DNA from: Nonomuraea longispora
GTDB taxonomy: Bacteria; Actinomycetota; Actinomycetes; Streptosporangiales; Streptosporangiaceae
Assembly: GCF_004348345.1 (NCBI RefSeq)
Contig: NZ_SMJZ01000073.1
Location: forward strand, 1 to 37,926
Direction: 5' to 3'
Length of the DNA: 37,926 bases
The notes under the pieces are model-generated. The model saw only the letters and a program-made list of their open reading frames with translations, ran no database searches and was not told the origin of the DNA. How positions within the stretch are numbered: the first letter of the stretch is position 1; each line of letters begins with the position of its first letter. The position numbers and the translations under genes are program-made. This document shows positions 1,075 through 21,281 of this stretch, in pieces.

Positions 1075-1114
1075 CCGGATCACCCTCTTGATCAAGCGCT
1101 CGGTTACGCACTAC

Positions 1115-1128
1115 TGCAACGTGTTCTA
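1115..1128. promoter_or_regulatory. KstR-like operator upstream of the P450 gene
   Basis: TGCAACGTGTTCTA fits the published KstR consensus TNNAACNNGTTNNA at every constrained position. On the minus strand it reads TAGAACACGTTGCA. It shares AACGTGTTCT with the site at the start of the TetR gene near 17065. Confidence 0.65.
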
Positions 1129-1151
1129 TTACGCCGCTGTACGGCCGTCAA
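1123..1151 (-). promoter_or_regulatory. Putative P450 promoter (-35 TTGACG, -10 TAGAAC)
   Basis: On the minus strand TTGACG (1146-1151) is separated by exactly 17 nt from TAGAAC (1123-1128). This is a good sigma-70-type pair. The -10 is the left half of the KstR-like operator, so repressor binding would block it. No transcription data are available. Confidence 0.55.
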
Positions 1152-1409
1152 GGAGCCTCGTGGTCGACACGCTTAGATCGTTCCTGGCAGGCCCTTTGCG
1201 GTTGCTGTGGCGCCTGCCCTCTGGGGTGCACGTTTCACCTCCGATGTTTGGGGTGGGGAAAATCTGGCTATGTGAACGTAGCCATCGGAGCGCTCACCCA
1301 ATTCACCGCCCACGGCCCTGCCCGGCACTCTTCTGTGAGTCACGTATCAGGACATGTCCGGGTTGTCGCCCTTGACACGCTCAGCCCGCTCGCACGAGCA
1401 TCAGAGCTG
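1129..1409. other. Intergenic region between divergent P450 and sugar operon
   Basis: This is the central part of a 366-base divergent gap (1075-1440), and it has no convincing gene. It holds a perfect 10-bp palindrome GGACATGTCC (1350-1359), a TTGACA hexamer (1372-1377) without a good -10 partner, and ACCTCCGATGT (1237-1247). The last is one mismatch from the core of the GntR-type operator at 1410. The small open frames here lack ribosome binding sites and recognisable products. Confidence 0.4.
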
Positions 1410-1427
1410 AGACATCCGATGTATAGA
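1410..1427 (+). promoter_or_regulatory. GntR-type operator and -10-like box of the sugar operon
   Basis: AGACATCCGATGT (1410-1422) contains the near-palindrome ACATCCGATGT. It is repeated, on the other strand, over the start of the GntR gene at about 13087-13100. TATAGA (1422-1427) follows directly and may be the -10, though that would give a very short leader before the GTG at 1441. The ribosome binding site GAAGGA is at 1429-1434. Confidence 0.6.
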
Positions 1428-1440
1428 TGAAGGATGCGGT

Positions 1441-2286
1441 GTGAAGCTGCTGCGAGTAGGACCTGCCGGCCAGGAGCGGCCGGTGGTGCTGGATGACGCC
1501 GGGAAGCTGCGCGACATCGGGGAGCCCGAGATCGACGGAGCTTTCCTCGCCTCCGGGGGAGTGGCGCGCGTCCGCGAGGCGCTCGAACGCGGCGATCTGC
1601 CCGTCGTCGACGCCGAGGGGCTGCGGATCGGCGCCCCTCTCGCGCGCCCCGGCAAGATCGTCTGCATCGGGCTGAACTACAGCGACCACGCCGCCGAGTC
1701 CGGTGCCGAGGCGCCGGCCGAGCCGGTCGTGTTCATGAAGGCGTCCAGCACCATGGTCGGTCCGCATGACGAGGTGCTGATCCCGCGTGGGAGCGTCAAG
1801 ACCGACTGGGAGGTGGAGCTGGCCATCGTCATCGGCCAGGAGGCCCGCTACCTGGGCAGCGCGGAGGAGGCCCGGGGGGTGATCGCCGGTTACGCGATCT
1901 CCAACGACGTCTCCGAGCGTGAGTTCCAGCTCGAGCGCGGCGGCCAGTGGGACAAGGGCAAGTCGTGCGAGACGTTCAACCCGTTCGGTCCGTGGCTGGT
2001 GACGGCCGACGAGGTGGGCGACCCGCAGCGGCTGCCCCTGCGTCTCTGGGTGAACGGCGAGCTGCGCCAGGACGGCGACACCAAGAACATGATCTTCGAT
2101 GTGGCCGAGGTGGTGCGTTACCTGAGCCAGTTCATGGTTCTGGAGCCGGGCGACGTGATCAACACCGGGACGCCCGCCGGGGTGGCGATGGGCATGCCGG
2201 GGCAGCCCTACCTCCGGGCCGGCGACGTGATGGAGCTGGAGATCGAAGGGCTGGGCCGGCAGCGCCAGACGGTGGGGCAGGCATGA
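1441..2286 (+). CDS. Fumarylacetoacetate hydrolase family protein, probable 2,4-diketo-3-deoxy-L-fuconate hydrolase
   Basis: This 281-residue FAH-fold enzyme is predicted to cleave the C-C bond of 2,4-diketo-3-deoxy-L-fuconate, giving pyruvate and L-lactate. This is the last step of the non-phosphorylative fucose route. Family marks are GLNYSDHA near residue 77, the acidic metal-site stretch [16 protein letters not shown], and the C-terminal [10 protein letters not shown] loop, with length typical of the small FAH class. The GTG start is set by GAAGGA 6 nt upstream and by the usual MKLLR N-terminus. The stop overlaps the start of the fuconate dehydratase (ATGA). The FAH family has many substrates; the assignment rests on the neighbouring FucD and SDR. 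Confidence 0.9.
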
Positions 2287-3578
2287 GCGGCTACCGCATC
2301 ACCGGGATGACGACGCACGACGTACGCTTCCCGACCTCGCGCGAGCTCGACGGCTCCGACGCGATGAACCCCGACCCCGACTACTCCGCCGCCTACGTCG
2401 TGCTCACGACCGACGACGGGTGCGAGGGACACGGGTTCGCGTTCACGATCGGGCGTGGCAACGACATCCAGACCGCGGCCATCACCGCGCTGGAGCCGTA
2501 CGTCGTCGGCAAGGACGTCGAGGACCTCGGCACGCTCTACCGCGACCTGGTCAACGACTCGCAGCTGCGGTGGCTGGGGCCGGAGAAGGGCGTCATGCAC
2601 ATGGCGATCTCCGCCGTGGTCAACGCGCTGTGGGACCTCAAGGCCAAGCGGGCGGGCAAGCCCCTCTGGCGGCTGCTGGCGGAGATGCCGCCCGAGGAGA
2701 TCGTCGGCCTCATCGACTTCCGTTACCTGAGCGACGCGCTGACCCAGGACGAAGCCCTCGAAATCCTGAAAAAGGCGGAAAAGGGGAAGGCTGAGCGCAT
2801 CAGCCACCTGGTCGAGACCGGCTACCCCGCCTACACCACCTCGCCCGGCTGGCTCGGCTACGACGACGAGAAGTTGCGCAGGCTCTGCAAGGAGGCCATC
2901 GACCAGGGCTTCGGGCAGATCAAGCTGAAGGTCGGCGCCGACCTCGACGACGACCGGCGCCGCTTCAGGGTGGCCCGCGAGGTGTGCGGGGCCGGCTACC
3001 CGATCGCGATCGACGCCAACCAGCGCTGGGACGTCGGCTCCGGCATCGAGTGGATCAACGCGCTGCGGGAGTTCGACCCGCACTGGGTGGAGGAACCGAC
3101 CAGCCCCGACGACGTGCTCGGCCACGCCGCCATCGCGCGGGGCATCGCGCCGGTCCCGGTGGCGACCGGCGAGCACGTACAGAACCGCATCGTGTTCAAG
3201 CAGCTGCTGCAGGCCGAGGCCGTCTCCTACGTGCAGATCGACGCGGCCCGCGTCGGCGGGGTCAACGAGAACCTCGCGATCCTGCTGCTCGCGGCGAAGT
3301 TCGGCGTCCCGGTGTGCCCGCACGCGGGCGGTGTCGGGCTGTGCGAGCTGGTGCAGCACCTGTCGATGTTCGACTACGTGGCCGTCACCGGCTCCATGGA
3401 GGGCCGCGTGATCGAGTACGTCGACCACCTGCACGAGCACTTCGCCGACCCGGTCGTCATCAGGAACGGCCGGTACGTCGCTCCCTCCGCGCCGGGCTTC
3501 AGCGCGCAGATGCACGCAGCGTCGATCGCCGCCCACACCTTCCCCGGCGGCGAGGTCTGGAGGAACGCGTGGGCCTGA
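2283..3578 (+). CDS. fucD: L-fuconate dehydratase (enolase superfamily)
   Basis: This 431-residue mandelate racemase-type enolase superfamily enzyme dehydrates L-fuconate to 2-keto-3-deoxy-L-fuconate; relatives also accept D-arabinonate and L-galactonate. The catalytic set is visible: the KxK pair K214/K216 in IKLKVG, metal ligands D244 (IDANQRW), E270 (VEEPTSPD) and E297 (GEHVQ), and the catalytic H347 (CPHAGG). The N-terminal block [19 protein letters not shown] and the TIGRGND segment match the characterised Xanthomonas FucD closely, as I recall it. The ATG overlaps the preceding stop by 4 nt, indicating translational coupling. This is the anchor that identifies the pathway. Confidence 0.96.
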
Positions 3579-4300
3579 AAGCGATCGTCACCGGCGGCGG
3601 CTCCGGCATCGGCCTGGCCACGGCCGCCGAGCTGACCGGGCGGGGGATGAAGGTCGCCTGCCTCGACCTCAACCCGCCGGGCGAGCCGTACCTCGGGATC
3701 AAGGCGGACGTCACCGACGACGCGGGGGTCAGGGCCGCGGTGGCGGAGGCCGGCGAGCGCCTGGGCGGAATCGACGTGGTGGTCAACAACGCGGGCATCG
3801 GCGCCCAAGGGACCATCGAGGACAACCCGGACGCCGAATGGCACAGGGTGTATGACGTCAACGTGCTGGGCATGGTCCGGGTGGCGCGGGCGGCGTTGCC
3901 GTATCTTAGGAGGTCGGAGCACGCCGCCATCGTCAACGTCTGCTCGGTCGCGGCCACCGCGGGGTTGCCGAACCGGGCGCTCTACAGCGCGACCAAAGGC
4001 GCGGTGCAGTCGCTCACGCTCGCCATGGCCGCCGACCACATCCGCGAGGGCATCCGGGTCAACTGCGTCAACCCGGGCACCGCCGACACACCGTGGGTCG
4101 CCAAGCTGCTCGACGTGGCCGACGACCCTGAGGCGGAGCGGGCGGCGCTGAGCGCCAGGCAGCCGATGGGCCGCCTGGTCAGCCCGGAGGAGGTCGCCGC
4201 GGCGATCGCCTACCTCGCCGGCCCGGAGGCGAGCGCCACCACCGGCACCGTGCTCGCGGTCGACGGCGGGATGCAGGGGTTGCGGCTCAGACCCAACTGA
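3569..4300 (+). CDS. SDR-family oxidoreductase, probable 2-keto-3-deoxy-L-fuconate 4-dehydrogenase
   Basis: This is a 243-residue classical short-chain dehydrogenase. It has the cofactor loop TGGGSGIG near residue 9, an Asp after beta-2 (CLDLN) suggesting NAD preference, the NNAG motif, the catalytic Ser region VCSVAATAG, and Tyr-x-x-x-Lys as YSATK. The C-terminus is [13 protein letters not shown] at 3569 is chosen because GGAGG lies at 3559-3563 and the open frame overlaps the fucD end by 10 nt. Context gives the role: it would oxidise the fuconate dehydratase product to the 2,4-diketo acid cleaved by the FAH enzyme. L-fucose dehydrogenase is the main alternative, but an aldo/keto reductase at the operon end fits that step better. 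Confidence 0.92.
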
Positions 4301-4320
4301 CCAAGGAAGGTGACACCCCC

Positions 4321-5340
4321 ATGAAGCTCGGATCGGCGGTCGCGGCGGCGGCCCTCCTGGCGGTCGTCACCGCCTGTGGCCCAGGCACGGCGGGAGGAGG
4401 CGACGGCGGCACCAGGATCGGCATCGACCACCCGCGCGCCGACTCCGACTTCTGGAACTCCTACATCAAGTACGTTCCGCGGATGGCCGGCGAGCTCAAG
4501 GTCGACCTCATGCCCGCCACCAACTCGCAGAACGATGTGGCGAAGCTGGTCAACAACGTGCAGGCGCTGATCGGGCAGGGGGCCAAGGTGATCGTCATGG
4601 CCCCGCAGGACACCGGCGCCGTCGCCAACACGCTCCAGCAACTGGAGAACAAGAAGATCCCGGTCGTGACCGTCGACACCCGGCCGGACAAGGGCAAGGT
4701 CTACATGGTCGTACGCGCCGACAACCGCGCGTACGGCACCAAGGCGTGCGAGTTCCTGGGTGAGAAGCTCGGCGGCAAGGGCAAGGTCGTGCAGCTCCAG
4801 GGCGCGCTCAGCTCGATCAACGGCCGTGACAGGTCGGAGGCGTTCCTGGAGTGCATGAAGACGAAGTTCCCCGGCATCACGGTCTTCAGCGAGCCGACCG
4901 AGTGGGAGGGAAGCAAGGCGGCGTCCATGTTGCAGACCCGCCTGGAGCAGAACCCCGACATCAAGGGGATCTACATGCACGCCGGAGGTGTGCACCTGGC
5001 CCCGACGTTGCAGGTGCTCAAGCAGAAGGGGCTGCTCGTGCCGCCGGGCGACCCGAAGCACATCTTCGTGGTCTCCAATGACGGCATCCCGCAGGAGTAC
5101 GCCGCGATCCGCAAGGGCGACATCGACGCCACCGTCTCGCAGCCCGCGGACCTGTACGCCAAGTACGCGCTCTTCTACGCCAAGGCGGCGGCGGACGGCA
5201 AGACGTTCAAGCCTGGCCCGACCGACCACGGCAGCACGATCATCCAGCTCCCGAACGGCCTGGAGGACCAGCTTCCCGCGCCGCTCGTGACCAAGGACAA
5301 CGTGGACGACAAGAGTCTCTGGGGCAACCAGGCCGGCTGA
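4321..5340 (+). CDS. Sugar ABC transporter substrate-binding lipoprotein (RbsB type)
   Basis: This 339-residue extracytoplasmic receptor is predicted to feed the ABC importer encoded next. A lipoprotein signal is clear: MKLG, a hydrophobic core, then the lipobox VVTAC with Cys near residue 19, followed by a Gly-rich linker. The mature part is a periplasmic-binding-protein type 1 fold of the ribose/galactose group (IGIDHPRADSDFW, NNVQALIGQGAKVIVMAP, VSNDGIPQEYAAI). It lies 20 bp after the SDR gene and overlaps the ATPase gene (TGATG). The ligand is inferred to be L-fucose or a stereochemically similar sugar such as L-galactose or D-arabinose. Confidence 0.93.
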   Translation: MKLGSAVAAAALLAVVTACGPGTAGGGDGGTRIGIDHPRADSDFWNSYIKYVPRMAGELKVDLMPATNSQNDVAKLVNNVQALIGQGAKVIVMAPQDTGAVANTLQQLENKKIPVVTVDTRPDKGKVYMVVRADNRAYGTKACEFLGEKLGGKGKVVQLQGALSSINGRDRSEAFLECMKTKFPGITVFSEPTEWEGSKAASMLQTRLEQNPDIKGIYMHAGGVHLAPTLQVLKQKGLLVPPGDPKHIFVVSNDGIPQEYAAIRKGDIDATVSQPADLYAKYALFYAKAAADGKTFKPGPTDHGSTIIQLPNGLEDQLPAPLVTKDNVDDKSLWGNQAG

Positions 5341-6821
5341 TGAACCATCACGTCGAAGCCCGGAACGTCGTCAAGCGGTTCGGCCCCACCACCGCGCTCG
5401 ACCGCGCGGGCATCGAGATCGCCGAGGGCGAGACCCGCGCGCTCGTCGGCAGGAACGGCGCCGGCAAGTCCACCCTCGTGTCGATCCTCACCGGGCTCCT
5501 GCGGCCCGACCAGGGCGAGGTGCTGTTCTCGGGCGAGCCGGCACCGCCCATCGCCGACCGTGACGCCTGGCGGCAGCGTGTCGCCTGCGTCTACCAGCAC
5601 TCGACGATCATCCCGGGGCTGTCGGTCGCCGAGAACCTCTTCCTCAACCGCCAGCCGGGCAGGGGCGGCCTGATCAGGTGGCGGGCGCTGCGGGACAGGG
5701 CGCGCGAGCTGCTGGACACGTACGAGGTGGACGTGGACGCGCAGGCCCTGGCCGGCGAGCTCACCGTGGAGCAGCGCCAGCTCGTCGAGATCGCCCGCGC
5801 GTTGTCGTTCGGGGCCAGGTTCATCATCCTCGACGAGCCGACCGCGCGGCTGGACGGCCCGGCCATCGAGCGGCTGTTCGCCCGCATGCGCTCGCTGCGC
5901 GAGCAGGGCGTCACGATGTTGTACATCTCCCACCACCTCGACGAGGTTTACGAGATCTGCCAGAGCGTCACGGTGTTCCGCGACGCCCGCCACATCGTGA
6001 CCAGCCCGGTCGCGGATCTCCCGCACGACGAGCTGGTCGCCGCGATGACGGGGGAGGCCACGGTGGCCTACACGTCCCGCTCGCGCACGCCCGGCGGCAC
6101 GGTGGTGTTGTCGGGCGAGCGGCTGTCGCTCGCCGGCCGCTACCAGGACGTCGACCTCACGGTCAGATCCGGCGAGGTCGTCGGCCTGGCGGGCTCCGCG
6201 AGCAGCGGCAAGGTCGGCCTGGCCGAGACGCTGGTCGGGCTGCACAGGGCCGACTCCGGCACGGTCACGGTCAACGGCAGGCGGCTCCGGCCGGGAGACG
6301 TGCCCGCCGCGCTGCGGGCAGGGCTCGGCTGGGTGCCGCAGGACCGCCACCGCGAGGGCTTCGTCCCGCGGTTGTCGGTGGGGGAGAACGCCACGTTCCC
6401 GATCGCCCGCAAGCTGGGACGGTACGGCCTGGTGTCGCCGTCGCGCCGCCGGGCGAAGGCCGAGGAGCTGATCGAGAGCCTGGACATCAAGACGGAAGGA
6501 GCCGACCAGCCGGTCGGTGACCTGTCCGGGGGCAACGCCCAGAAGGTGGTGTTCGCGCGGGCGCTCGTGGACGACCCGGACGTGCTGGTGGTGATCAACC
6601 CGACCGCCGGCGTCGACGTCAAGGCCAAGCAGGCGCTGCTCGGCGCCGTCGAGGACGCCGTCGAGCGGGGCGCGGGGGCCGTGGTGGTCTCCGACGAGCT
6701 CGATGACCTGCGCATCTGCGACAGGGTGCTGGTGATGTTCCACGGCAGGGTCGTCAAGGACTTGCCGCGTGGCTGGACGGACCACGAGCTCGTGGCCGTG
6801 ATGGAGGGCATGGAAGAGTGA
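5340..6821 (+). CDS. Sugar ABC transporter ATP-binding protein (RbsA/XylG type)
   Basis: This is a 493-residue tandem-ATPase subunit. The first nucleotide-binding domain has Walker A GRNGAGKST near residue 38 and Walker B FIILDEPTARLD. Its signature region is unusual, reading LTVEQRQLVEIARAL instead of LSGGQ. The second domain has a degenerate P-loop GSASSGKVG, with intact signature LSGGNAQKVVFARAL and a weak Walker B LVVINPTAG. One degenerate ATP site is usual in RbsA-type proteins; here each half is imperfect in a different motif. It is coupled to the binding protein upstream (TGATG) and the permease downstream (GTGA). Confidence 0.95.
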   Translation: MNHHVEARNVVKRFGPTTALDRAGIEIAEGETRALVGRNGAGKSTLVSILTGLLRPDQGEVLFSGEPAPPIADRDAWRQRVACVYQHSTIIPGLSVAENLFLNRQPGRGGLIRWRALRDRARELLDTYEVDVDAQALAGELTVEQRQLVEIARALSFGARFIILDEPTARLDGPAIERLFARMRSLREQGVTMLYISHHLDEVYEICQSVTVFRDARHIVTSPVADLPHDELVAAMTGEATVAYTSRSRTPGGTVVLSGERLSLAGRYQDVDLTVRSGEVVGLAGSASSGKVGLAETLVGLHRADSGTVTVNGRRLRPGDVPAALRAGLGWVPQDRHREGFVPRLSVGENATFPIARKLGRYGLVSPSRRRAKAEELIESLDIKTEGADQPVGDLSGGNAQKVVFARALVDDPDVLVVINPTAGVDVKAKQALLGAVEDAVERGAGAVVVSDELDDLRICDRVLVMFHGRVVKDLPRGWTDHELVAVMEGMEE

Positions 6822-7807
6822 CCAGTTCAACTGCGCCGGTCCTCCGGGTGCGGCCGGCCCGGTTCCGCGACCTGACGCTCGTGCCGGTGATCGTGCTGCT
6901 GCTCGTCGTGGGCGCCTTCCTCGACCCGACCTTCCTGACGGCGGGCAACCTGACCAACGTGCTCCAGCAGCAGGCGGCGATCTCGCTCCTGGTGCTGGCC
7001 GAGGCGATGATCCTCATCGCCGGGAAGTTCGACCTGTCGCTGGAGTCGACGGTCGGCACCGCGCCCGCGATCGCCGTGATGCTGATCATCCCGGTGTCGG
7101 CGGGCGGGTTCGGCACCGGGCTGCCCGGCCCGCTCGTGATCCCGCTGGCGCTGCTGGTCGGGGCCGCGATCGGGGCGATCAACGGTCTCCTCATCATCAG
7201 GTTCCAGCTGTCGGCGTTCATCGTCACGCTGGCCATGCTGATCGTGGTGCACGGTTTCCTGCAGGGGCCGACGGAGGGCAAGACGTTGTTCCAGCTGCCC
7301 GAATCGATCCTCTATCTCGGCAGCGTGTCGTGGCTGGGCCTTCCGGCGGCCGTCTGGATCGCCGGGGCGCTGTTCGCCGCCGGCGTCTTCGCCCTCGGAT
7401 ACCTCAGGGCCGGCCGCGCGCTCTACGCCATCGGCGGCAACGCCGACGCGGCCCGCGCGGCCGGCATCCGCGTCGACCGGGTGCTCTGGGCCGTGTTCAT
7501 CCTGGGCGGCACGCTGGCGGCGCTGGCCGGGATTCTGGAGACGGGACGCCTCGGGGCGATCGGCAACAACCAGGGCGTCGGGTGGATCTTCATGGTGTTC
7601 GCGGCGGCCGTCATCGGCGGCGTCAGCATGGACGGGGGCAAGGGCACCATCCTGGGCGCGCTCACGGGCGTGCTGGTGATCGGCCTGGTGCAGAACATCC
7701 TGACGCTGATCGGCGTGTCGGGCTTCTGGCAGCCTGTCATCTACGGCGCGATCATCCTCATCGCGCTGATGATCAGCAGAATCGCGGGCGGAAAGGCACA
7801 AGATTGA
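6818..7807 (+). CDS. Sugar ABC transporter permease (RbsC type)
   Basis: This 329-residue integral membrane protein of the BPD_transp_2 family has about eight to ten hydrophobic segments. The conserved segment LAEAMILIAGKFDLSLES is where RbsC proteins carry G-x-D-LS. The loop YAIGGNADAARAAGIRVDRV is the usual coupling motif for the ATPase. The GTG start overlaps the ATPase stop (GTGA). It forms the membrane channel for the importer of this operon and presumably works as a homodimer. Confidence 0.94.
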   Translation: MTSSTAPVLRVRPARFRDLTLVPVIVLLLVVGAFLDPTFLTAGNLTNVLQQQAAISLLVLAEAMILIAGKFDLSLESTVGTAPAIAVMLIIPVSAGGFGTGLPGPLVIPLALLVGAAIGAINGLLIIRFQLSAFIVTLAMLIVVHGFLQGPTEGKTLFQLPESILYLGSVSWLGLPAAVWIAGALFAAGVFALGYLRAGRALYAIGGNADAARAAGIRVDRVLWAVFILGGTLAALAGILETGRLGAIGNNQGVGWIFMVFAAAVIGGVSMDGGKGTILGALTGVLVIGLVQNILTLIGVSGFWQPVIYGAIILIALMISRIAGGKAQD

Positions 7808-8736
7808 ACTCAATGGAGCTGCCGCGCCACGGGTTCGGCGGGGCGCCCCTGGGCAACCTGTTCGAGTCGGTCGCGGAGGAACAGGCCCGCGCCACGGTGG
7901 ACGCCGCGTGGGACGCGGGTGTGCGGCTGTTCGACACCGCCCCCCACTACGGGCTCGGCCTGTCGGAGCGGCGTCTGGGCGCGGCGCTGGCCGGCCGCTC
8001 GGGCTACGTCCTGTCCACGAAGGTCGGCCGCCTGCTGGTGCCCGCGCGGCCGGGGAGAGAGCGTGACGGCGAGGGCTTCGACGTACCGGCCGCGATCGAG
8101 CGGGTGTGGGACTTCTCCGGCGACGGCGTACGCAGGTCGCTGGAGGAGTCGCTTGACCGCCTCGGGCTGCCGTCCGTCGACATCGTGCTCATTCACGACC
8201 CGGACGACCACGTCGACCAGGCGATCACGCAGGCGTACCCGGCGCTGGCCGAACTGCGCGACCAGGGTGTGGTGAAGGCCATCGGCGTCGGGATGAACCA
8301 GTGGCAGGCGCCGTTGCGCTTCGTCCGGGAGAGCGGCGTCGACGTCGTCATGCTCGCGGGCCGCTACACCCTGCTCGACCAGTCGGGCCTGCCGCTGCTG
8401 GGGGAGTGCGCGCAGCGCGGCGTCAGGGTGCTGGCGGCCGGGGTGTTCAACAGCGGCCTCCTCGCGACCCACGAGCCGGCGGGCACCTATGACTACCGGC
8501 CGGCGCCGGCCGAGCTGGTGGCGCATGCCAGTCGCATCGCCGCCGTCTGCGAGCGTCACGGCGTCACCCTGCCCCAGGCGGCCATGGCCTTCCCGCTGCG
8601 CCACCCCGCCGTCGCGTCGATCGTGGTGGGCGCCCGAGCTCCGGAGGAGGTCCGTACGAACGCCGCCCTGTGGTCCCGGCCGGTTCCCGGCTCGCTCTGG
8701 GAGGAGCTCGCGGCGGAAGGGCTGCTGCCGGCCTGA
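7804..8736 (+). CDS. Aldo/keto reductase, probable L-fucose (D-threo-aldose) 1-dehydrogenase
   Basis: This is a 310-residue AKR-fold oxidoreductase. The catalytic tetrad is visible: Asp in RLFDTAPHYG, Tyr in HYGLGLSE, Lys in LSTKVGR and His in LIHDPDDH. The sequence type resembles D-threo-aldose 1-dehydrogenases that oxidise L-fucose to its lactone, which would be step one of this operon's pathway. The TTG at 7804 is preferred: it overlaps the permease stop (TTGA) and has GGAAAGG 7 nt upstream. The ATG at 7813 is the alternative. No lactonase gene follows. Confidence 0.9.
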   Translation: MNSMELPRHGFGGAPLGNLFESVAEEQARATVDAAWDAGVRLFDTAPHYGLGLSERRLGAALAGRSGYVLSTKVGRLLVPARPGRERDGEGFDVPAAIERVWDFSGDGVRRSLEESLDRLGLPSVDIVLIHDPDDHVDQAITQAYPALAELRDQGVVKAIGVGMNQWQAPLRFVRESGVDVVMLAGRYTLLDQSGLPLLGECAQRGVRVLAAGVFNSGLLATHEPAGTYDYRPAPAELVAHASRIAAVCERHGVTLPQAAMAFPLRHPAVASIVVGARAPEEVRTNAALWSRPVPGSLWEELAAEGLLPA

Positions 8737-8815
8737 CCGCGGCCGCTCATCCGGCCTCCCTCCCACAGGGCGCTCGCATCGATCGCCCGCATCCGGGCGC
8801 CGAAGGCTCGGGTGG

Positions 8816-9763
8816 TCAGGAGGGGATGAACAGCCAGGACTTCGACGGTCCCGGCTCGTACGGCGCGTCCAGGCGCTTGGCCACCACTCCCGGCAGCTCC
8901 TGCTCGCGGGCCGCCTGCCGCACCGGGCCCGCCTCGCCCGGCCAGGACGGCGCGGTCTGCCAGTGGGGGCCGGCGAGGTCGAGCGCCTCCAGCGCGGCCC
9001 TGCGGTCCGTGTAGGGCTGGTCCACCAGGGACCGCCCGTCGTCGTAGAGGAGGTCGTAGAAGACGAGGATCTCGGCGCCTCCCAGGGTGACGAGCTCGCC
9101 GTCGAGCAGCGCCGTACGGCTGCCGAACGACTCCGCCAGCCCTCGCAGCCACGGGTGCTCGCGGGACGCAGTGGTGCGGCCGCCCTCGACGGGCACCAGC
9201 AGCCGCCGGCCTCCCCAGGCGAACTCGAAGGCGTAGGCGGAGGCGTCGCGCGGCGGCCTGGCGCGTTCGGCGGGCAGCATGGGCTCGACGTCGGGGAACG
9301 GGTCGCGGACCGGGGGATCCATGCGGTGGATCATCCAGTTCTTGCCCCGCGTACGGAACAACACGAACCGGCCGGAGGCCCGCGTGCCGTGCAGGACGAC
9401 CTTGACCTCGCGCTCCGACCACTTCTCGGTGTCGTACGTGCCGGTGTCCCAGATGGTCATGGTGCCGCCGCCGTACTCGCCCTTGGGGATCTCGCCGTGG
9501 AAGGTGAGGTATTCCAGCGGGTGGTCCTCGGTGTGCACGGCCAGGTGGTTGGTGGCGGGGTCGGCGGGCAGTCCCTTGGGCACGGCCCAGGAGACGAGCA
9601 CGCCGTCGCGTTCGAGCCGCAGGTCCCAGTGCAGCGACCGCGCGTGGTGCTCCTGGATGACGAACGCCCGGTCGTCTCCTGGGGCCGGGGGTTCGGCGGG
9701 GACGGGTTCAGGGGTGCGTCGGTCGTCGCGCTTGCTCCGGTATCGCGCAAGTTTGTCGGACAC
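8816..9763 (-). CDS. LigD-type 3'-phosphoesterase fused to a catalytically degenerate DNA ligase domain
   Basis: This is a 315-residue protein. Residues about 30-160 are a LigD phosphoesterase domain with H39, H45 and D47 (QEHHARSLHWD), the SWAVPKG loop and the HGEIPKGEYGGG motif. Residues about 175-315 resemble the ligase adenylation domain. Motif I, normally E-x-K-x-D-G, here reads EFAWGG, so the adenylated Lys is Ala182 and the Asp is Gly184. Motif III-like LLDGELV and motif IV-like GVVAKRLD remain. There is no OB domain and no polymerase domain. The GTG start has AGGAG 6 nt upstream. It follows the LacI gene by 9 bp on the same strand. 3'-end healing is plausible; ligation is not expected. 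Confidence 0.9.
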   Translation of the reverse strand: MSDKLARYRSKRDDRRTPEPVPAEPPAPGDDRAFVIQEHHARSLHWDLRLERDGVLVSWAVPKGLPADPATNHLAVHTEDHPLEYLTFHGEIPKGEYGGGTMTIWDTGTYDTEKWSEREVKVVLHGTRASGRFVLFRTRGKNWMIHRMDPPVRDPFPDVEPMLPAERARPPRDASAYAFEFAWGGRRLLVPVEGGRTTASREHPWLRGLAESFGSRTALLDGELVTLGGAEILVFYDLLYDDGRSLVDQPYTDRRAALEALDLAGPHWQTAPSWPGEAGPVRQAAREQELPGVVAKRLDAPYEPGPSKSWLFIPS

Positions 9764-9772
9764 ACCAGGCTC

Positions 9773-10789
9773 CTACCCGCCGGTGCTCTCTCTGATCATC
9801 AGCTCGTACGGCACCCGGATCTCGCGTGCCTCGGCCTGCGAGCCCTTGGCCATGCGGGCGGCCAGCTGATCGACGGCCTGGCGGGCGATCGCCTGCTTGT
9901 CGGGGGAGATCGTGGTGAGGGTGGGGGTGGCGTACCTGCCGTCCTCGATGTCGTCGAAGCCCGCCAGCGCCACGTCGCCGGGCACGTCGTGGCCGCGCTC
10001 CAGCAGCGTGCGCAGGGCGCCGAGGGCGAGCAGGTCGTTGAAGCAGAAGACCGCGTCCGGCGCCTGGCCACAGTCGAGCAGCCGGGCCATCGCGCGGGCG
10101 CCGTCGGCGCGGTGGTAGGTGTCGACGTGCTGCACGAGCCGGTCGTCGGCGGGCAGGCCGACCTCGGCCAGCGCCTCGAAATAGCCGGCCAGCCGCAGCC
10201 GTGACGTCTCCGCCGCGACGTCGTCCTGGGCGCCGATCGCCGCGATGCGCCGCCGGCCGGTCGCGGCCAGGTGGAGGGTGGCCTCCTTGGCCGCCGCCAC
10301 GTTGTCCACCACGACGTGGTCGGCAGGCCCGTCGTAGACGCGCTCGCCGAGCAGCACCATGGGTGTGTCGTCCATGCGGGCGGCCAGGTCCTCGGGCGTC
10401 AGCGCGAGCGGGCTGAAGATCAGTCCGTCGATCAGGTGGGCGCGGAACCCCTCGGCGACGAGTTGCTCGCGCTCGCGCGACGCGCCTGTCTGGTCGATCA
10501 GCACGGTCAGCCCGCGTTCCTCCGCCGCGCTCACCACGAGCCTGGCCAGCTCCGCGAAGTAAGGGATGTCCAGTTCGGGCACGGCCAGGGCGATGATCCC
10601 GGTGCGGCCCTGCCGCAGGTTCCTGGCCGACAGGTTGGGGCGGTAGTTGAGCTCCTTGATGGCCGCCTCGACCCGGCTCCTGGTGGCCGACGTGACGTGT
10701 ACGTAGCCGTTGACGACGTTCGAGACGGTCTTCACCGATACTCCGGCCAGCCTGGCCACGTCCTTGAGACCGACGCGCGGTTTCTCCAT
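9773..10789 (-). CDS. LacI-family transcriptional regulator
   Basis: This 338-residue repressor has an N-terminal HTH (KDVARLAGVSVKTVSNVVNG, about residues 8-27), a hinge region with PNLSARNLRQGRTG, and a periplasmic-binding-protein type 1 effector domain. The ATG has no clear Shine-Dalgarno. It is divergent from the GH51 gene, and the gap contains two CG-centred palindromes (10809-10828 and 10824-10837), the typical shape of LacI operators. It probably represses the arabinofuranosidase gene and itself; the effector is likely a sugar released by GH51. A LigD-like gene follows 9 bp downstream and may be co-transcribed. Confidence 0.94.
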   Translation of the reverse strand: MEKPRVGLKDVARLAGVSVKTVSNVVNGYVHVTSATRSRVEAAIKELNYRPNLSARNLRQGRTGIIALAVPELDIPYFAELARLVVSAAEERGLTVLIDQTGASREREQLVAEGFRAHLIDGLIFSPLALTPEDLAARMDDTPMVLLGERVYDGPADHVVVDNVAAAKEATLHLAATGRRRIAAIGAQDDVAAETSRLRLAGYFEALAEVGLPADDRLVQHVDTYHRADGARAMARLLDCGQAPDAVFCFNDLLALGALRTLLERGHDVPGDVALAGFDDIEDGRYATPTLTTISPDKQAIARQAVDQLAARMAKGSQAEAREIRVPYELMIRESTGG

Positions 10790-10808
10790 GACGGAAAGTG
10801 TAAAACCC

Positions 10809-10843
10809 TGTGTACAACGTTGAATACAACGATGTATAGATGA
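10809..10843 (+). promoter_or_regulatory. LacI-type double operator and GH51 promoter
   Basis: TGTGTACAAC/GTTGAATACA (10809-10828) matches its own reverse complement at 8 of 10 positions per half-site and has a central CG. ATACAACGATGTAT (10824-10837) is a second CG-centred palindrome with 6 of 7 matching. TGTACA (10811-10816) and TATAGA (10835-10840), 18 nt apart, form a plausible promoter that both palindromes overlap. CGATGTATAGATGA (10830-10843) also occurs at 1417-1430. Confidence 0.5.
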
Positions 10844-10872
10844 GCAGAGCCCTGACGAAGGAGGACGTGCCC

Positions 10873-12369
10873 ATGGATTCCGCCAAGCTCACCCTGGACC
10901 CGGCGTTCGAGGTCGGCCCGGTAGGGAAGCGACTGTTCGGCTCGTTCGTCGAGCACATGGGGCGGTGCGTGTACACGGGCGTGTTCGAGCCCGGACACCC
11001 GCGGGCGGGGGAGGACGGGCTGCGCCGCGACGTCATCGAGCTGACCAGGGAGATGGGCGTCACCACCGTGCGCTACCCGGGGGGCAACTTCGTCTCCAAC
11101 TACGAATGGGAGGACGGCGTCGGACCCGCGTCCGAGCGGCCCACGCGGCTCGACCTGGCCTGGAAGCAGATCGAGACGAACGCCTTCGGGCTCGACGAGT
11201 TCATGACCTGGCTGCGCGAGGTGGACGCCGAGCCGGTGATGGCCGTCAACCTGGGCACCAGGGGCGTCAAGGAGGCTCGCGACCTCGTCGAGTACGCCAA
11301 CTTCCCCGGCGGCACCCGCTGGTCCGACCTGCGGATCAAGCACGGCGTGCCGGAGCCGTACGGCATCAGGGTGTGGTGCCTGGGCAACGAGATGGACGGG
11401 CCCTGGCAGATCGGCGGCAAGACGGCCGACGAGTACGGCAGGCTCGCGTACGAGGCGGCCAAGGCCATGCGCCGGGTGGACCCCGGCCTGGAACTGATCG
11501 CCTGCGGCAGCTCCAACATGCGCATCCCGACGTTCGGCTCGTGGGAGGCCACGGTTCTGGAGCACTGCTACGACCAGGTCGACTACATCTCCGCGCACTC
11601 CTACTACGACCCGGTGGGAGGCGGCCGGGCCGACTTCCTGGCCTCGGCCGTGGAGATGGAGCAGCAGATCGAGGGCGTGATCGCCACGGCCGACCACGTG
11701 GCCGCCAAGCTCGGCAGCGGCAAGCGGCTCAAGGTCTCCTTCGACGAGTGGAACGTCTGGTCGCAGAGCCTGTTCGGCGGCGAGAACAGCCTGGACTGGG
11801 AGCACGCGCCGCGCATCATCGAGGAGGAGTACGACGTCGCCGGCGCGGCCGTCGTCGGCAGCCTGCTCATCACCCTGCTCAACCACGCCGACCGGGTCGG
11901 CATCGCCTGCCAGGCCCAGCTCGCCAACGTGATCGCCCCCATCCGCACCGAGCCGGGTGGCCCCGCCTGGCGGCAGACGATCTTCCACCCGTTCGCGCTC
12001 ACCGCCGCCCACGCCCGCGGGCGCATCCTGCGCGTGCAGGCCACGGCGCCCGCCATGCCGACCGAGCGCTACGGCGAGGTGCCCGTGCTGGCCACCGCGG
12101 CGACGCTGGACGACGACCGGCTGGCCGTCTTCGCGGTCAACCGCGGCGACCGGCCGCTGCCGGTGGAGATCGATCTGCGCGGCCTGCCGCGGGCGACGGA
12201 CCTCTCGCACGTCACGGTCGCCGACGACGACACCGGGGCGCGCAACACCGAGAGCGAGCCGCGCCGCGTGGAGCCTCGGGCCGCCGACGGAGCGAAGATC
12301 GACCGTGACCGGCTCACGGCGGTGCTGCCGCCGGTGTCCTTCAACCTGCTGAGGGCGCGGCTCTCCTAG
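10873..12369 (+). CDS. Alpha-L-arabinofuranosidase, GH51 family
   Basis: This is a 498-residue retaining glycoside hydrolase that removes terminal alpha-L-arabinofuranosyl units from arabinan, arabinoxylan or their oligosaccharides. The catalytic acid/base is E173 in WCLGNEMDG and the nucleophile is E292 in SFDEWNVW, with a (beta/alpha)8 barrel followed by the C-terminal beta-sandwich. The N-terminal stretch LFGSFVEHMGRCVY is characteristic. There is no signal peptide, so it should act on imported oligosaccharides in the cytoplasm. ATG at 10873 is chosen because GAAGGAGG lies at 10857-10864; an ATG at 10840 is in frame but falls at the promoter. It is convergent with the GntR gene. Confidence 0.95.
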   Translation: MDSAKLTLDPAFEVGPVGKRLFGSFVEHMGRCVYTGVFEPGHPRAGEDGLRRDVIELTREMGVTTVRYPGGNFVSNYEWEDGVGPASERPTRLDLAWKQIETNAFGLDEFMTWLREVDAEPVMAVNLGTRGVKEARDLVEYANFPGGTRWSDLRIKHGVPEPYGIRVWCLGNEMDGPWQIGGKTADEYGRLAYEAAKAMRRVDPGLELIACGSSNMRIPTFGSWEATVLEHCYDQVDYISAHSYYDPVGGGRADFLASAVEMEQQIEGVIATADHVAAKLGSGKRLKVSFDEWNVWSQSLFGGENSLDWEHAPRIIEEEYDVAGAAVVGSLLITLLNHADRVGIACQAQLANVIAPIRTEPGGPAWRQTIFHPFALTAAHARGRILRVQATAPAMPTERYGEVPVLATAATLDDDRLAVFAVNRGDRPLPVEIDLRGLPRATDLSHVTVADDDTGARNTESEPRRVEPRAADGAKIDRDRLTAVLPPVSFNLLRARLS

Positions 12370-12392
12370 CGCTGGAGGGCCGTCCCTGGTGA

Positions 12393-13091
12393 TCAGCCGA
12401 GCTCCAGTGCCCGGCGCAGCCACGACTCGACCCCGGCCACGTGCACGGTGGCCCAGGAGCGGGCGACGTCGGGCCGGCGGGCGGCGATGGCCTCGTAGAT
12501 CGCGGTGTGCTGCTCCCTGGTCTTCTCCATCGCGCCCTCCTGGGTGAGGCCGCGCCAGATCCGCGCCCGAGTGGTCGGACCTGACAGGCTCTCGATGAAC
12601 GAGCAGAGCACGCTGTTGCCCGACCCCCGGGCGATGCGCTGGTGGAAGGTCAGGTCGTTGGCCACCAGTTCCTCGACCGTGGGCTCGGCAGGGAGCGCCT
12701 CGAGGATCTCGCGCAGCTCGGCGATGTCCTGGTCGGTCATCAGCTCGGTCGCCATCGCCGTGGCGGCGGGCTCAAGGATGCGGCGGACCTCGAAGAACTG
12801 CAGCACCGTGTCGTCGCGGTGCAGGTCGAGCACGAACGACATGGTGTCGAGCAGCAGGCGCGGCTCCAGGCTGGTGACGTAGGTGCCGTCGCCCTGGCGT
12901 ACGTCGAGCACGTTGATCAGCGACAGCGCGCGCACGGCCTCACGCAGCGAGTTGCGGGACAGTCCGAGCCGTTCGGCGAGGTCGGCCTCCTTGGGCAGCC
13001 GGTCGCCCGGCGCCAGCTCGCCGGAGACGATCATCTGCTTGATCTTGTCGATGGCCGCGTCGGTGACCGCCACGCTTTTCTCCCTGGACAT
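12393..13091 (-). CDS. GntR-family regulator, FadR/FCD subfamily
   Basis: This 232-residue regulator has a winged HTH at about residues 10-75 (DRLPKEADLAERLGLSRNSLREAVRAL and GDGTYVTS) and an all-helical FCD ligand domain (EVRRILEPAATAMA, NDLTFHQRIARGSGN). FCD regulators usually sense small carboxylates or sugar acids. The ATG lies inside the palindrome GACATCCGATGTC (13087-13099), and no ribosome binding site is visible, so leaderless or coupled translation is possible. It begins 7 bp after the MBL stop on the same strand. A 13-base identical site in front of the sugar operon at 1410 makes that operon the likely target, with autoregulation. Confidence 0.94.
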   Translation of the reverse strand: MSREKSVAVTDAAIDKIKQMIVSGELAPGDRLPKEADLAERLGLSRNSLREAVRALSLINVLDVRQGDGTYVTSLEPRLLLDTMSFVLDLHRDDTVLQFFEVRRILEPAATAMATELMTDQDIAELREILEALPAEPTVEELVANDLTFHQRIARGSGNSVLCSFIESLSGPTTRARIWRGLTQEGAMEKTREQHTAIYEAIAARRPDVARSWATVHVAGVESWLRRALELG

Positions 13092-13099
13092 CGGATGTC
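13087..13099. promoter_or_regulatory. GntR operator overlapping the gntR start codon
   Basis: GACATCGGATGTC is a near-perfect palindrome spanning the GntR initiation codon and touching the MBL stop codon. The minus-strand string AGACATCCGATGT is identical to 1410-1422 in front of the sugar operon. Confidence 0.6.
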
Positions 13100-14121
13100 T
13101 AGGAGTCTAGAGCCTGGAAGCGGACCGGCTCGACACCGGCGTGGCGGCGTACGTGGCCCTGCACCTCCAGGGTGCGCAGGTGGGCCGCGGCCTCTCCGGC
13201 GGCCATGCCTCTCAGCATGGGGGACAGCTCGTCCCATGGCCTGTTCCAGGTCATCATCGCGGCGACCTCCCAGATGGTCAGCGGCTCCGGCCGCTCGGCC
13301 AGGAGGGCGCGCAGCCGTTGGAGCTTGTCCTCGTGATGGTCGCGGATCTCGGCTGCCCGCGCGGCCACATTGGGAAATGTCCATTCATGTGCTGGCAGCG
13401 CGTCCAGCGGCCCGAACCCGGCCACCCGATCCAGGGATCGCAGGAAATCCCCGAGCGGATCGACGTCGTCTCGGTCGTAGGGATAGATGCCGACGTGCGG
13501 GGTGATGCCGGGAAGGACGTGGTCACCGGTGAAGAGCCGGTCGGCGTCCTCCAGGTGCAGGCAGATGTGGCCGGGCGTGTGGCCGGGCGTGTGCACGGCC
13601 CGCAGCCTGCGCCCCGGCAGGTCGACCAGGTCGCCGTCGCGCAACTCGCGATCGGGCTGCGCCGGCGGCGCGGCACGGCCGCCCGACGCCTCGCGCGCCT
13701 CGTCGGGATCGGCCCCCGCCCGCCTGAGCATGTCGGACCGGAACGTGTCCTGCGCGTCGCCCGCGTACCCGATCATGAGCCTGACCAGCGCCGCGTCGTC
13801 CTCGTGCATGGCGATCCAGGCGCCGGACGCCTCCCTGACCTGCCCGGCGAGCCCGGCGTGGTCGGGATGGAAATGGGTGACCACCACGCCGCGCACCGAG
13901 GCCACGTCCATGCCGAGCGTCGCCAGGCCGCCGCTGAGCGCCTCCCACGCCTCCGGATGGTTCCACCCGGCGTCGACCAGCACCGGTCCTTGGGGCGACT
14001 CGACGGCGTAGACGAGCGTGTAGCCGAGCGGGTTGCCGGGGATCGGCACCGGCACGCTCCACACCCCGCCGCCGAGGTCCTGAGGACGTTGCTCGGTGTA
14101 CGGCCTGCGTCTGGTCTTCAT
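13099..14121 (-). CDS. MBL-fold metallo-hydrolase
   Basis: This 340-residue metallo-beta-lactamase-fold hydrolase has the zinc motif THFHPDHAG near residue 80, a further GHTPGH motif, TGDHVLPG, and a C-terminal winged-helix-like extension (LTIWEVAAMMTW, HLRTLEVQGHV). This architecture is common in actinobacterial hydrolases acting on thioesters or lactones, but the substrate cannot be read from the sequence. It follows the FadA5-like thiolase by 44 bp and precedes gntR by 7 bp, so it may be a thioesterase-like accessory enzyme of the lipid pathway. Being a lactonase for the sugar pathway, with its GntR neighbour, is a second possibility. ATG at 14121 has GGGGG a few bases upstream. Confidence 0.88.
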   Translation of the reverse strand: MKTRRRPYTEQRPQDLGGGVWSVPVPIPGNPLGYTLVYAVESPQGPVLVDAGWNHPEAWEALSGGLATLGMDVASVRGVVVTHFHPDHAGLAGQVREASGAWIAMHEDDAALVRLMIGYAGDAQDTFRSDMLRRAGADPDEAREASGGRAAPPAQPDRELRDGDLVDLPGRRLRAVHTPGHTPGHICLHLEDADRLFTGDHVLPGITPHVGIYPYDRDDVDPLGDFLRSLDRVAGFGPLDALPAHEWTFPNVAARAAEIRDHHEDKLQRLRALLAERPEPLTIWEVAAMMTWNRPWDELSPMLRGMAAGEAAAHLRTLEVQGHVRRHAGVEPVRFQALDS

Positions 14122-14165
14122 GCGCCCCCGATCGTGGTGCCCTGCGTGAAAATCGTGCTGAGAAG

Positions 14166-16320
<2,155 letters not shown>

Positions 16321-16383
16321 ACCCCCTGTATAAACGTTGCCACTGACATAACGGCGACATCTTTACCGTCGCGCGGTCGATTC

Positions 16384-16413
16384 GCCGCCCGGTCCTGAAC
16401 AGGGGCGGGCGGC
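16384..16413 (-). terminator. Hairpin after the TetR gene
   Basis: GCCGCCCG (16384-16391) and CGGGCGGC (16406-16413) pair perfectly, and an inner CCT/AGG adds three pairs. It begins at the base after the TetR stop. There is no U-tract, which is common for actinobacterial terminators. Confidence 0.6.
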
Positions 16414-17064
16414 TCAGACGTCGGCGAGCAGCCTGGTGGCGGCGGTCTCGATGCGGCGCTGGATCTGGTCGTACGTCCGGCGCCCGCGGAGCATCTCCAG
16501 CAGCTCCTGCACCCACACGCTGGCCAGGGACCCCGCGAGGTCGAGCTGCTCCTCGGTGGCGTCCTCGATCGACAGGCCGTCGGCCGAGACGCGCAGCAGC
16601 AGGCCCGTCATCCGGTCGCCGAACGGCGTCTGCACCTCGGCCATGATGAGGGAACGGATGAGCGCGTCGGCCAGCTCGGGCTCGCGCATGAGCCCGCGGG
16701 TCGCACGCATCAGCACGTCGACCGCGCGGCTCGCCGGGGTGGCGGCGCCGGGCGGGCGGCGCTCGATGCTGCTCTCCAGCAGGTCGAGCTCCTCGCCGAC
16801 CACCGCCACGACAAGATCCATCTTGGACGGGAAGTAGCGGTAGAGCGTGCCGAGCGCCACGCCCGCGCGCTCGGCCACGGTGCGCATCTGCATCGCCTCG
16901 ACCCCGCCGCGCGAGGCCAGCGCCGCCGCGGCCTGGACGATGCGCTTGCGGCGCTGGTGCTGGCTGCGACTACGGACGCTGTGCCCGCCGGGGGCGGGGT
17001 GGCTGTCGATGACCCCCTCGATGTCGCCGGAGGGCTCGGCGGTCGTCGCGTGCGTGGTACGCAT
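16414..17064 (-). CDS. kstR: TetR-family repressor, KstR-like
   Basis: This 216-residue regulator has a Ser/Pro-rich leader of about 35 residues, then a TetR HTH (MRTVAERAGVALGTLYRYFPSK, about residues 61-82) and an all-helical ligand domain. The C-terminal region (ASVWVQELLEMLRGRR, RRIETAATRLL) lines up well with M. tuberculosis KstR, the cholesterol-catabolism repressor that responds to a steroid-CoA thioester. The ATG has no ribosome binding site; TAACGT seven bases upstream fits a TANNNT -10 of a leaderless mRNA. A KstR-like site lies over that box, implying autoregulation. It is divergent from the igr-like operon. It could be a KstR paralogue rather than the orthologue. Confidence 0.88.
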   Translation of the reverse strand: MRTTHATTAEPSGDIEGVIDSHPAPGGHSVRSRSQHQRRKRIVQAAAALASRGGVEAMQMRTVAERAGVALGTLYRYFPSKMDLVVAVVGEELDLLESSIERRPPGAATPASRAVDVLMRATRGLMREPELADALIRSLIMAEVQTPFGDRMTGLLLRVSADGLSIEDATEEQLDLAGSLASVWVQELLEMLRGRRTYDQIQRRIETAATRLLADV

Positions 17065-17078
17065 AAGAACACGTTATC
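17065..17078. promoter_or_regulatory. KstR-like operator at the TetR gene start
   Basis: AAGAACACGTTATC has the invariant core AACNNGTT but not the outer T and A. It overlaps TAACGT (17071-17076, minus strand), the likely -10 of the TetR gene. AGAACACGTT is shared with the P450 operator. Confidence 0.55.
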
Positions 17079-17187
17079 TGATTTCTCGATGACGCGGCTT
17101 GTTACTCGCGGGTCACAAACTTGCCGTATAGGTGCATGTCTACGGCGTTACAGGCGTATATCTCGACTTATCGGTATAGGTGGCTAC

Positions 17188-17216
17188 TGGACAGATATTA
17201 GAATCTGTTCTAGTTT
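17188..17216 (+). promoter_or_regulatory. Promoter of the igr-like operon with KstR-like operator in the spacer
   Basis: TGGACA (17188-17193) and TAGTTT (17211-17216) are 17 nt apart. TAGAATCTGTTCTA (17199-17212), a palindrome TAGAA-N4-TTCTA, fills the spacer and runs into the -10. It differs from TNNAACNNGTTNNA at one position. The ribosome binding site GGAGGAG follows at 17243-17249. The 9-base direct repeat GTATAGGTG occurs upstream at 17126 and 17174. Confidence 0.6.
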
Positions 17217-17251
17217 GCGATTCGTCTTACCTAGCGCCTGCTGGAGGAGCG

Positions 17252-21267: not shown

Positions 21268-21281
21268 ACCAGAAGGAGAGG

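Follow-up and report, generated by a model that had tools for sequence, protein, structure and literature searches.

Predicted operators of a KstR-related TetR regulator at sterol side-chain genes of Nonomuraea longispora

The DNA analysed here (the window) covers positions 1 to 37,926 of contig NZ_SMJZ01000073.1 of Nonomuraea longispora, 37,926 nt in all; in our numbering it lies on contig C436 of genome G000 (9.16 Mb, 465 contigs). Four palindromes in it are likely to be operators of the TetR-type regulator encoded at 16414-17064, which belongs to a sister clade of KstR and whose gene is called kstR below. As we read the sequences, this regulator would act by steric repression on a regulon made up of CYP125, the FadA5-MBL pair, the igr-like operon, kstR and a glycosyltransferase cluster, with a nitrogen input. 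The four sites themselves, as predicted, are very probably genuine repressor-binding sites for sterol side-chain genes. The regulator gene and the sites are the following.

16414..17064, minus strand: KstR-like TetR repressor gene, KstR sister clade (KstR structures, 118 bits; NF033703, 146 bits)
1115..1128, plus strand: predicted operator TGCAACGTGTTCTA before the CYP125-family P450 gene; 8/8 core positions; equivalent in 3/3 congeneric genomes
15314..15327, minus strand: predicted operator, TAGAACGCGTTACT on the gene strand, before FadA5; TAGAACNNGTTAC(A/T) site in 69/69 loci
17065..17078, minus strand: predicted operator abutting the kstR start codon and overlapping a putative -10 TAACGT; GAACACGTTAY in 81/81 sequences
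17199..17212, plus strand: predicted operator TAGAATCTGTTCTA within the -35/-10 spacer of the putative igr promoter; TRRAATNNGTTCTA in 78/81 sequences

The predicted operators and their conservation

The sequence-only reading had placed four 14-mers at these positions, and all four are there: TGCAACGTGTTCTA (1115), AGTAACGCGTTCTA (15314), AAGAACACGTTATC (17065) and TAGAATCTGTTCTA (17199). Compared with TNNAACNNGTTNNA, they match 8, 7, 6 and 7 of the eight core positions, just as had been stated. The core AGAACA/TGTTCT, described as common to the four, is found in three of them; the site at 15314 has AGAACG/CGTTCT. The same site qualifies the statement that the sites lie just upstream of genes: it lies about 33 bp upstream of the thiolase GTG, but it also overlaps the stop codon of the sigma factor gene. 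The central proposal, a shared operator before a CYP125-family P450 gene, a FadA5-type thiolase gene, the TetR gene and an igr-like operon, has held up. The KstR operator pattern TNNAACNNGTTNNA is thus present at the target promoters, the igr site being off at one core position and the kstR site at two.

Match scores alone are weak evidence, as the window holds 67 matches with at most two mismatches against 28.1 expected. Nine matches have at most one mismatch, and three of these are among the proposed operators. The excess of loose matches would suit an explanation by chance or coding-sequence matches in a window of 71% G+C, and so would the genome matches inside LacI-type genes that recur in congeners. 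A strict site was defined as having at most one mismatch to TAGAACNNGTTCTA, or at most two with all eight core positions intact. The window has two strict sites, at 1115 and 17199, where 100 dinucleotide shuffles gave 0.01 on average; the operators at 15314 and 17065 fall short of this definition.

We judge the operators real because the kstR, igr, FadA5 and P450 sites are conserved across loci, not from motif counts. The footprint set was drawn from one search of named genomes using the TetR protein as query and comprises the best 80 of 254 loci. It covers Nonomuraea, 11 other named genera and one further member of the Streptosporangiaceae, and all counts out of 81 include the window; the closest named locus is that of N. 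deserti (95% in the TetR protein). Besides the near-invariant kstR and igr sites listed above, the spacing between the two is kept at 131-135 bp in 79/80 relatives (124 bp in L088). The FadA5 site lies 44-135 bp from the aligned start in all 69 loci. The P450 site is present in 10 of the 12 loci holding the gene, and no site was found within 300 bp of the P450 genes of L081 and L089. Upstream sites were seen in 2/55 loci for the MBL gene and in 3/9 for FAH, four of these nine having no upstream sequence.

A wider set of 110 loci, consisting of the same 80 and 30 added later, was searched for strict sites within 350 bp upstream of genes. Such sites precede P450 in 18/22 cases, FadA5 in 68/76, kstR in 93/110, the glycosyltransferase gene in 18/27 and the PNPOx gene in 3/3. 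None was found before seven control genes (0/421 pooled), namely the prenyltransferase-like (0/26), sigma (0/38), ChsH1 (0/75), Ltp2 (0/70), FadEb (0/88), ChsH2 (0/72) and 22450-type (0/52) genes. Some strict sites also precede FadEa (18/62), methyltransferase (4/9), alcohol dehydrogenase (1/3), FAH (2/3) and MBL (4/64) genes, and the inspected cases adjoin target promoters. The GMD (GDP-mannose-dehydratase-like) gene was left out of the controls; once its starts are corrected, 14/17 cases show a site, which is explained by the intergenic region common to GMD and the glycosyltransferase gene. With sites near-invariant over 69-81 loci, control genes devoid of them and two strict sites where 0.01 are expected, we regard a chance origin as exceedingly improbable, and it was rejected on the conservation footprint.

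Promoter context and proposed mode of action

The following elements accompany the kstR and igr operators.

17188..17193, plus strand: putative -35 TGGACA of the igr promoter (TGGACA-N17-TANTTT in 73/81 sequences)
17211..17216, plus strand: putative -10 TAGTTT of the igr promoter (same 73/81)
17101..17118, minus strand: conserved box GTTACTCGCGGGTCACAA, GTTAC-N6-GTCAC(AA), fitting GTnAC-n6-GTnAC; centre about 45 bp before the kstR start

The igr operator sits between TGGACA and TAGTTT, whose spacer is 17 nt. The kstR operator directly adjoins the start codon, with CAT no more than 2 nt away in 80/81 sequences, and TAACGT beneath it can be placed as the likely -10 of a leaderless transcript. 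The mycobacterial kstR operator is described as located upstream of the -10 with a partial overlap (Kendall et al., PMC1995591), so the window kstR promoter would follow the same logic of an operator overlapping the -10.

We infer binding, repression, ligand, nitrogen input and promoter elements as follows. The repressor keeps the DNA-reading domain and the operator of KstR and carries a different ligand domain. It would block transcription sterically, filling the gap between the -35 and -10 elements at the igr promoter and, at the kstR promoter, covering the -10 of what is probably a leaderless transcript. Its FadA5 site is about 33 bp upstream of the start codon, and its P450 site a few tens of bp upstream of the provisional start. 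An acyl-CoA-like lipid intermediate probably releases it, and the repressor is probably also under nitrogen control through the GlnR/MtrA-type box located about 45 bp upstream of the kstR start. The regulon predicted for Nonomuraea includes CYP125, FadA5-MBL, igr, kstR and, outside the window, a glycosyltransferase/methyltransferase/prenyltransferase-like cluster.

A GTNAC-n6-GTNAC box is present in 74/81 sequences, in 72 of them at a constant distance from the kstR site. By sequence fit it corresponds to the GlnR consensus GTnAC-n6-GTnAC of S. venezuelae (PMC3087709). In M. smegmatis GlnR controls cholesterol catabolism via KstR, and MtrA competes with GlnR in some cases (review PMC10704036). 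We predict the same regulatory logic as in the GlnR control of M. smegmatis kstR (Ma et al. 2022, cited in PMC10704036) for the window, where it is the conserved box that points to it. The box probably belongs to kstR, since it is retained in L081 and L091, whose flanks showed no igr genes.

The box could instead be a part of the kstR promoter or a target of an ECF sigma factor. Its GTCACAA-N16-CATG spacing resembles that of ECF41 promoters, and an ECF sigma gene adjoins in Nonomuraea. The window box is also the only place in the genome within one mismatch of GTTACYNNNNRGTCACAA, which would suit a promoter, although we treat the single copy as neutral because GlnR sites vary. However, genera without such a sigma gene in the loci analysed still have the box, and its fit to GTnAC-n6-GTnAC is exact, so that a promoter or sigma target in place of a GlnR/MtrA box appears somewhat unlikely.

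Several observations weigh against the regulon as proposed here. The footprint loci share ancestry, since they were picked by TetR-gene similarity, and genera other than Nonomuraea provide the more independent rows. No strict site is present within 350 bp of the glycosyltransferase gene in 9/27 cases or of FadA5 in 8/76. In nearly every locus the igr site carries T for C at one core position, and the two deviations of the kstR site occur throughout. A generic promoter scan of 16950-17300 yielded no consensus promoter. Finally, the GlnR-type box is absent or altered in 7/81 sequences, and just 11 of the 30 further loci have such a box, two of them without a recognisable kstR site as reference.

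The regulator and the steroid genes

The sequence-only reading took the regulator for KstR, and on this point we come to a different result. The TetR protein scores 146.3 bits with the curated KstR equivalog NF033703, missing the cut-off of 280, while a protein of the same bacterial family encoded at locus L214 in the KshA-positive genome G116 passes it (316 bits). A tree of 71 sequences consists of KstR proper together with M. tuberculosis KstR (15 sequences, support 1.0; L214 is among them), the 3bjb group (7, support 1.0) and, with 49 tips of which three are more distant members, the window group (support 0.966). The DNA-binding domain of the window protein is of the KstR type, being identical to that of M. 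tuberculosis KstR at 33/50 positions (66%) including the GTLYRYFPSK stretch; the ligand domain is identical at 30/124 (24%). For L214 the corresponding values are 43/50 and 71/129. These values indicate that operator reading is kept and ligand sensing probably changed. On the equivalog cut-off, the tree and the ligand-domain identity we reject orthology of the window protein with KstR. As it is not KstR proper, 3-oxo-cholestenoyl-CoA, proposed as its ligand, is a mere guess.

The window regulator and KstR (Rv3574 family) share the TetR fold, a similar recognition region, the operator TNNAACNNGTTNNA, predicted autoregulation and targets of the CYP125, FadA5 and igr kind. The window operators follow the half-site logic of experimentally supported KstR sites such as ACTGAAACGTGTTCTAG, and in mycobacteria KstR sites are found at the P450, FadA5 and igr promoters (Rv3545c/Rv3546; PMC1995591). 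Unlike KstR, the window regulator belongs to a separate clade and has a divergent ligand domain; its regulon comes without detected ring-degradation genes, counts the glycosyltransferase cluster among its predicted targets and has a GlnR-type box in the kstR promoter. The 3bjb group (cholate-type cluster regulators) likewise consists of KstR-related TetR proteins of the same bacterial family but forms another clade, and a 3bjb-group match lies within 10 kb of kshA in 8/9 genomes having one. The name KstR3 has been used by two papers for apparently different genes, one being a cholate-cluster-type regulator gene.

Operators that are real could also be read mainly by another regulator, or by the window TetR protein together with an unlinked one. 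The KstR profile has 74 matches in the genome, which might offer candidates, but most of them arise via the general TetR DNA-binding domain, and the best match of 146 bits is followed by one of just 42. Moreover, the kstR site persists in L081 and L091, neither of which showed igr genes in the flank, and the DNA-binding domain is 95% identical on average in a clade sample of 48. We therefore hold the involvement of another regulator to be quite improbable.

The genes of the window are ordered as CYP125 P450 (minus strand), a sugar/acid catabolism segment, MBL and FadA5 (minus), sigma (minus), TetR (minus) and the divergent igr-like operon (plus). Those relevant here are listed below.

1..1095, minus strand: probable CYP125-family P450 (Pfam p450), cut by the window end, start provisional
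13099..14121, minus strand: MBL-fold hydrolase, downstream of the FadA5 gene (NF053820, 382 bits, below the cut-off of 525)
14166..15281, minus strand: FadA5-type steroid 3-ketoacyl-CoA thiolase (NF005889, 599 bits, above the cut-off of 515)
15325..16320, minus strand: ECF-type sigma factor with SnoaL domain, between kstR and fadA5
17252..17707, plus strand: N-terminal fragment (151 aa) of a CasI/FadD-type acyl-CoA synthetase (NF052587, 78 bits over residues 3-103, cut-off 900)
17707..18810, plus strand: acyl-CoA dehydrogenase, ChsE-type subunit by position (Pfam)
18804..19964, plus strand: acyl-CoA dehydrogenase, ChsE-type subunit by position (Pfam; no NCBIfam cut-off reached)
19961..20854, plus strand: ChsH2-type hydratase with DUF35 (Pfam OB_ChsH2_C, zf-ChsH2)
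20851..21267, plus strand: ChsH1-type MaoC hydratase (Pfam)
21264..22460, plus strand: Ltp2-type aldolase, thiolase-like (NF005892, 692 bits, above the cut-off of 469)

The P450 protein, a putative sterol C26-monooxygenase of the CYP125 family whose gene is cut by the window end, reaches no NCBIfam cut-off; its best PDB matches are CYP125MRCA (446 bits), CYP125 chains such as 2xn8 (331 bits) and then CYP124 (296). The ChsE subunits, ChsH2, ChsH1 and Ltp2 form one predicted operon, judging by gene order. Two acyl-CoA dehydrogenases, ChsH2, ChsH1 and Ltp2 follow each other as in the igr operon of the Rv3540c-Rv3545c type in M. tuberculosis. In contrast to that operon, CYP125 lies outside, and a CasI-type acyl-CoA synthetase gene comes first in many relatives and as a fragment in the window. 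The sugar/acid segment between the operator genes, which splits the regulon as had been noticed, codes for an FAA hydrolase, an enolase-superfamily protein, an SDR, a sugar ABC transporter, an aldo/keto reductase, a DNA-ligase-D-type protein, a LacI protein, an arabinofuranosidase and a GntR protein.

Several side observations concern these genes. The acyl-CoA synthetase fragment aligns over 116 residues to a longer N. deserti frame (80% identical), and among 75 relatives with FadEa the frame has at least 430 aa in 44, is shorter in one and has no match in 30. A perfect 15-bp inverted repeat with a 7-nt loop (15280-15316) spans the FadA5 Shine-Dalgarno sequence, start codon and operator edge and could hide the ribosome site in the FadA5 mRNA; it is exact in the window and in L016, the only one of 54 relatives, and its CCAGA-N7-TCTGG core occurs in eight of nine other relatives inspected. 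Almost every Nonomuraea locus, and L092 as well, has the sigma/SnoaL gene close to kstR; it was not found there in most other genera, where fadA5 often directly follows kstR. A conserved 521-aa protein encoded at 22450-24015 adjoins igr in many relatives and has a weak sub-cut-off match to sigma-70 region 4.

Among ring A/B genes, kshA, kstD and hsaC were the sterol genes searched genome-wide, and the set expected of a KstR regulon was not found. KshA_C (PF19298) has no match in the genome. There are 51 FAD_binding_2 (PF00890) matches, of which the five strong ones were examined for KstD: four are of the succinate dehydrogenase/fumarate reductase/aspartate oxidase (Sdh/Frd/NadB) types and the fifth scores 140-158 bits against cut-offs of 788-789. 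The lone TIGR03213 (HsaC) match has 168 against a cut-off of 450. With no KshA and the KstD and HsaC candidates far below their cut-offs, the regulon looks side-chain-only, apparently serving side-chain without ring degradation. The genome also holds one array of six MCE matches (contig C182).

The regulator could still be KstR itself, commanding an ordinary cholesterol regulon induced by 3-oxo-4-cholestenoyl-CoA: KstR chains are its best structural relatives, and it shares with KstR the operator core and the kinds of promoters that carry it in mycobacteria. Considering the missed equivalog cut-off, which L214 passes, the grouping of L214 with M. tuberculosis KstR and the lack of ring-degradation candidates, we find this unlikely and retain the sister-clade repressor as our reading.

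The distribution of these genes was surveyed in 120 genomes of the family using score thresholds, with relatedness ignored. KshA_C is over the Pfam cut-off in 34 genomes and strong (E <1e-80) in 27. Ltp2 (E <=1e-120) is found in 65 genomes, 63 of them over the cut-off, and these 65 include all 27 with strong KshA. The window-type regulator (at least 62% identity) is present in 92 genomes. Strong KshA occurs in 15 of these carriers (21 with weaker matches), leaving 77 without it, or 71 on the looser count; Ltp2 occurs in 53 and has no match in 39, though a partial match exists in at least one of these 39 (G009, L247). The window-type regulator is present in every one of the 38 genomes that have Ltp2 but lack strong KshA. 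KstR proper was found in 14 genomes, 12 of them with strong KshA. Fourteen of 15 pieces around Ltp2/KshA of KshA-positive genomes lack a strict site, and most clusters of such genomes look like a different system. The remaining piece, L214 (G116:C129), combines KstR proper and igr with five strict sites; one of them is a perfect TAGAACATGTTCTA and lies 6 bp upstream of the probable start codon of kshA.

Sites elsewhere in the genome and the glycosyltransferase cluster

A loose genome scan (TAGAACNNGTTCTA, two mismatches) was uninformative, with 117 places against 298 for the reversed-pattern control; the pattern is its own reverse complement. Its four other one-mismatch places are two in coding genes and two between non-sterol genes, one of them being the glycosyltransferase site. 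Exact TNNAAYNNGTTCTA covers two window sites and misses the operators at 15314 and 17065; it occurs in 10 places of the genome and the reversed pattern in three. The sterol link expected from such a scan is seen in part: two of the ten places are the window sterol promoters, and three intergenic ones are kept in 3/3 congeners. Three others lie in coding genes (two LacI-type, recurring in 2/3 and 1/3 congeners), and two (C195:1055 and C21:3574) recur in 2/3. Recurrence within the genus is thus no proof of an operator, since the sites inside LacI-type genes recur too. In mycobacteria, the Rv0223c motif gave a negative gel shift (PMC1995591).

The three conserved intergenic sites occupy the same positions in all three congeners. 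One precedes a GT4 glycosyltransferase gene (C110:4537, L111) and one a PNPOx-family gene (C110:9862, L111); in congener G100 both lie within about 27 kb of the igr site. The third is located between nitronate-monooxygenase-like and carotenoid-oxygenase-like genes (C463:29838, L110) and is doubled, 42 bp apart, in two congeners. As for the two less constant sites, TATAACATGTTCTA at C195:1055 (L004) lies between the end of an FbiC-like gene, as read from the open reading frame, and a solute-binding-protein-like gene, and TTCAACAGGTTCTA at C21:3574 (L015) lies between or within two overlapping reading frames.

In other genera, the glycosyltransferase site was found in 6/6 loci with this gene inside the flanks and the PNPOx site in 2/2. 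A regulon that is local and purely sterol-related, as originally supposed, does not agree with an operator that also precedes glycosyltransferase and PNPOx genes and is kept there across genera. The cluster includes GT4, a class I methyltransferase, a database-named prenyltransferase (no Pfam match), DUF1702, a second methyltransferase, PNPOx and an NDMA-type alcohol dehydrogenase that is below its cut-off.

Twenty of the 39 genomes having the regulator without Ltp2 were examined, and in 18 the glycosyltransferase gene lies within the same piece of about 19.5 kb. Twelve of the 20 pieces have no CYP125, FadA5, FadE, ChsH or Ltp2 match (E 1e-12, 38% identity); all 12 hold the glycosyltransferase gene and 10 hold at least one strict site, with shuffle means of 0.00-0.03. 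Among the 12, L260 does have a match to acyl-CoA synthetase. In some deeper loci (e.g., L245), kstR and a divergent MBL gene flank the site, and the glycosyltransferase gene is further along. The tie of the clade to this cluster seems wider than its tie to sterol breakdown, and is perhaps older.

We tentatively suggest, as a possibility short of a probability, that the family holds a third KstR-type regulator besides KstR and the cholate-cluster type, with the KstR operator kept and the ligand domain changed. Its most constant partner would be the glycosyltransferase/methyltransferase/prenyltransferase-like cluster; in Nonomuraea and others it may also control a side-chain-only sterol module ending at 17-keto steroids, under nitrogen control by GlnR. 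Our search of the open-access literature found no paper joining KstR, cholesterol and Nonomuraea, and none on the clade, the glycosyltransferase link or a kstR box outside mycobacteria.

In our judgement, KstR and its motif are widely read as signs of actinobacterial cholesterol catabolism. A study of 31 genomes had KstR arising in the ancestor of Mycobacteria and Rhodococcus (PMC3388012). In the present survey, most sampled genomes of another family carry a sister clade that shares the operator, and it outlives the sterol genes there. With 77 of the 92 carriers lacking strong KshA and 39 lacking an Ltp2 match, operator motifs alone would over-predict cholesterol degraders. The effector of the clade becomes a testable question, and there is now a candidate regulator for the glycosyltransferase cluster. 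Steroid manufacture would also have an interest in strains whose cleavage of sterol side chains is not followed by ring opening.

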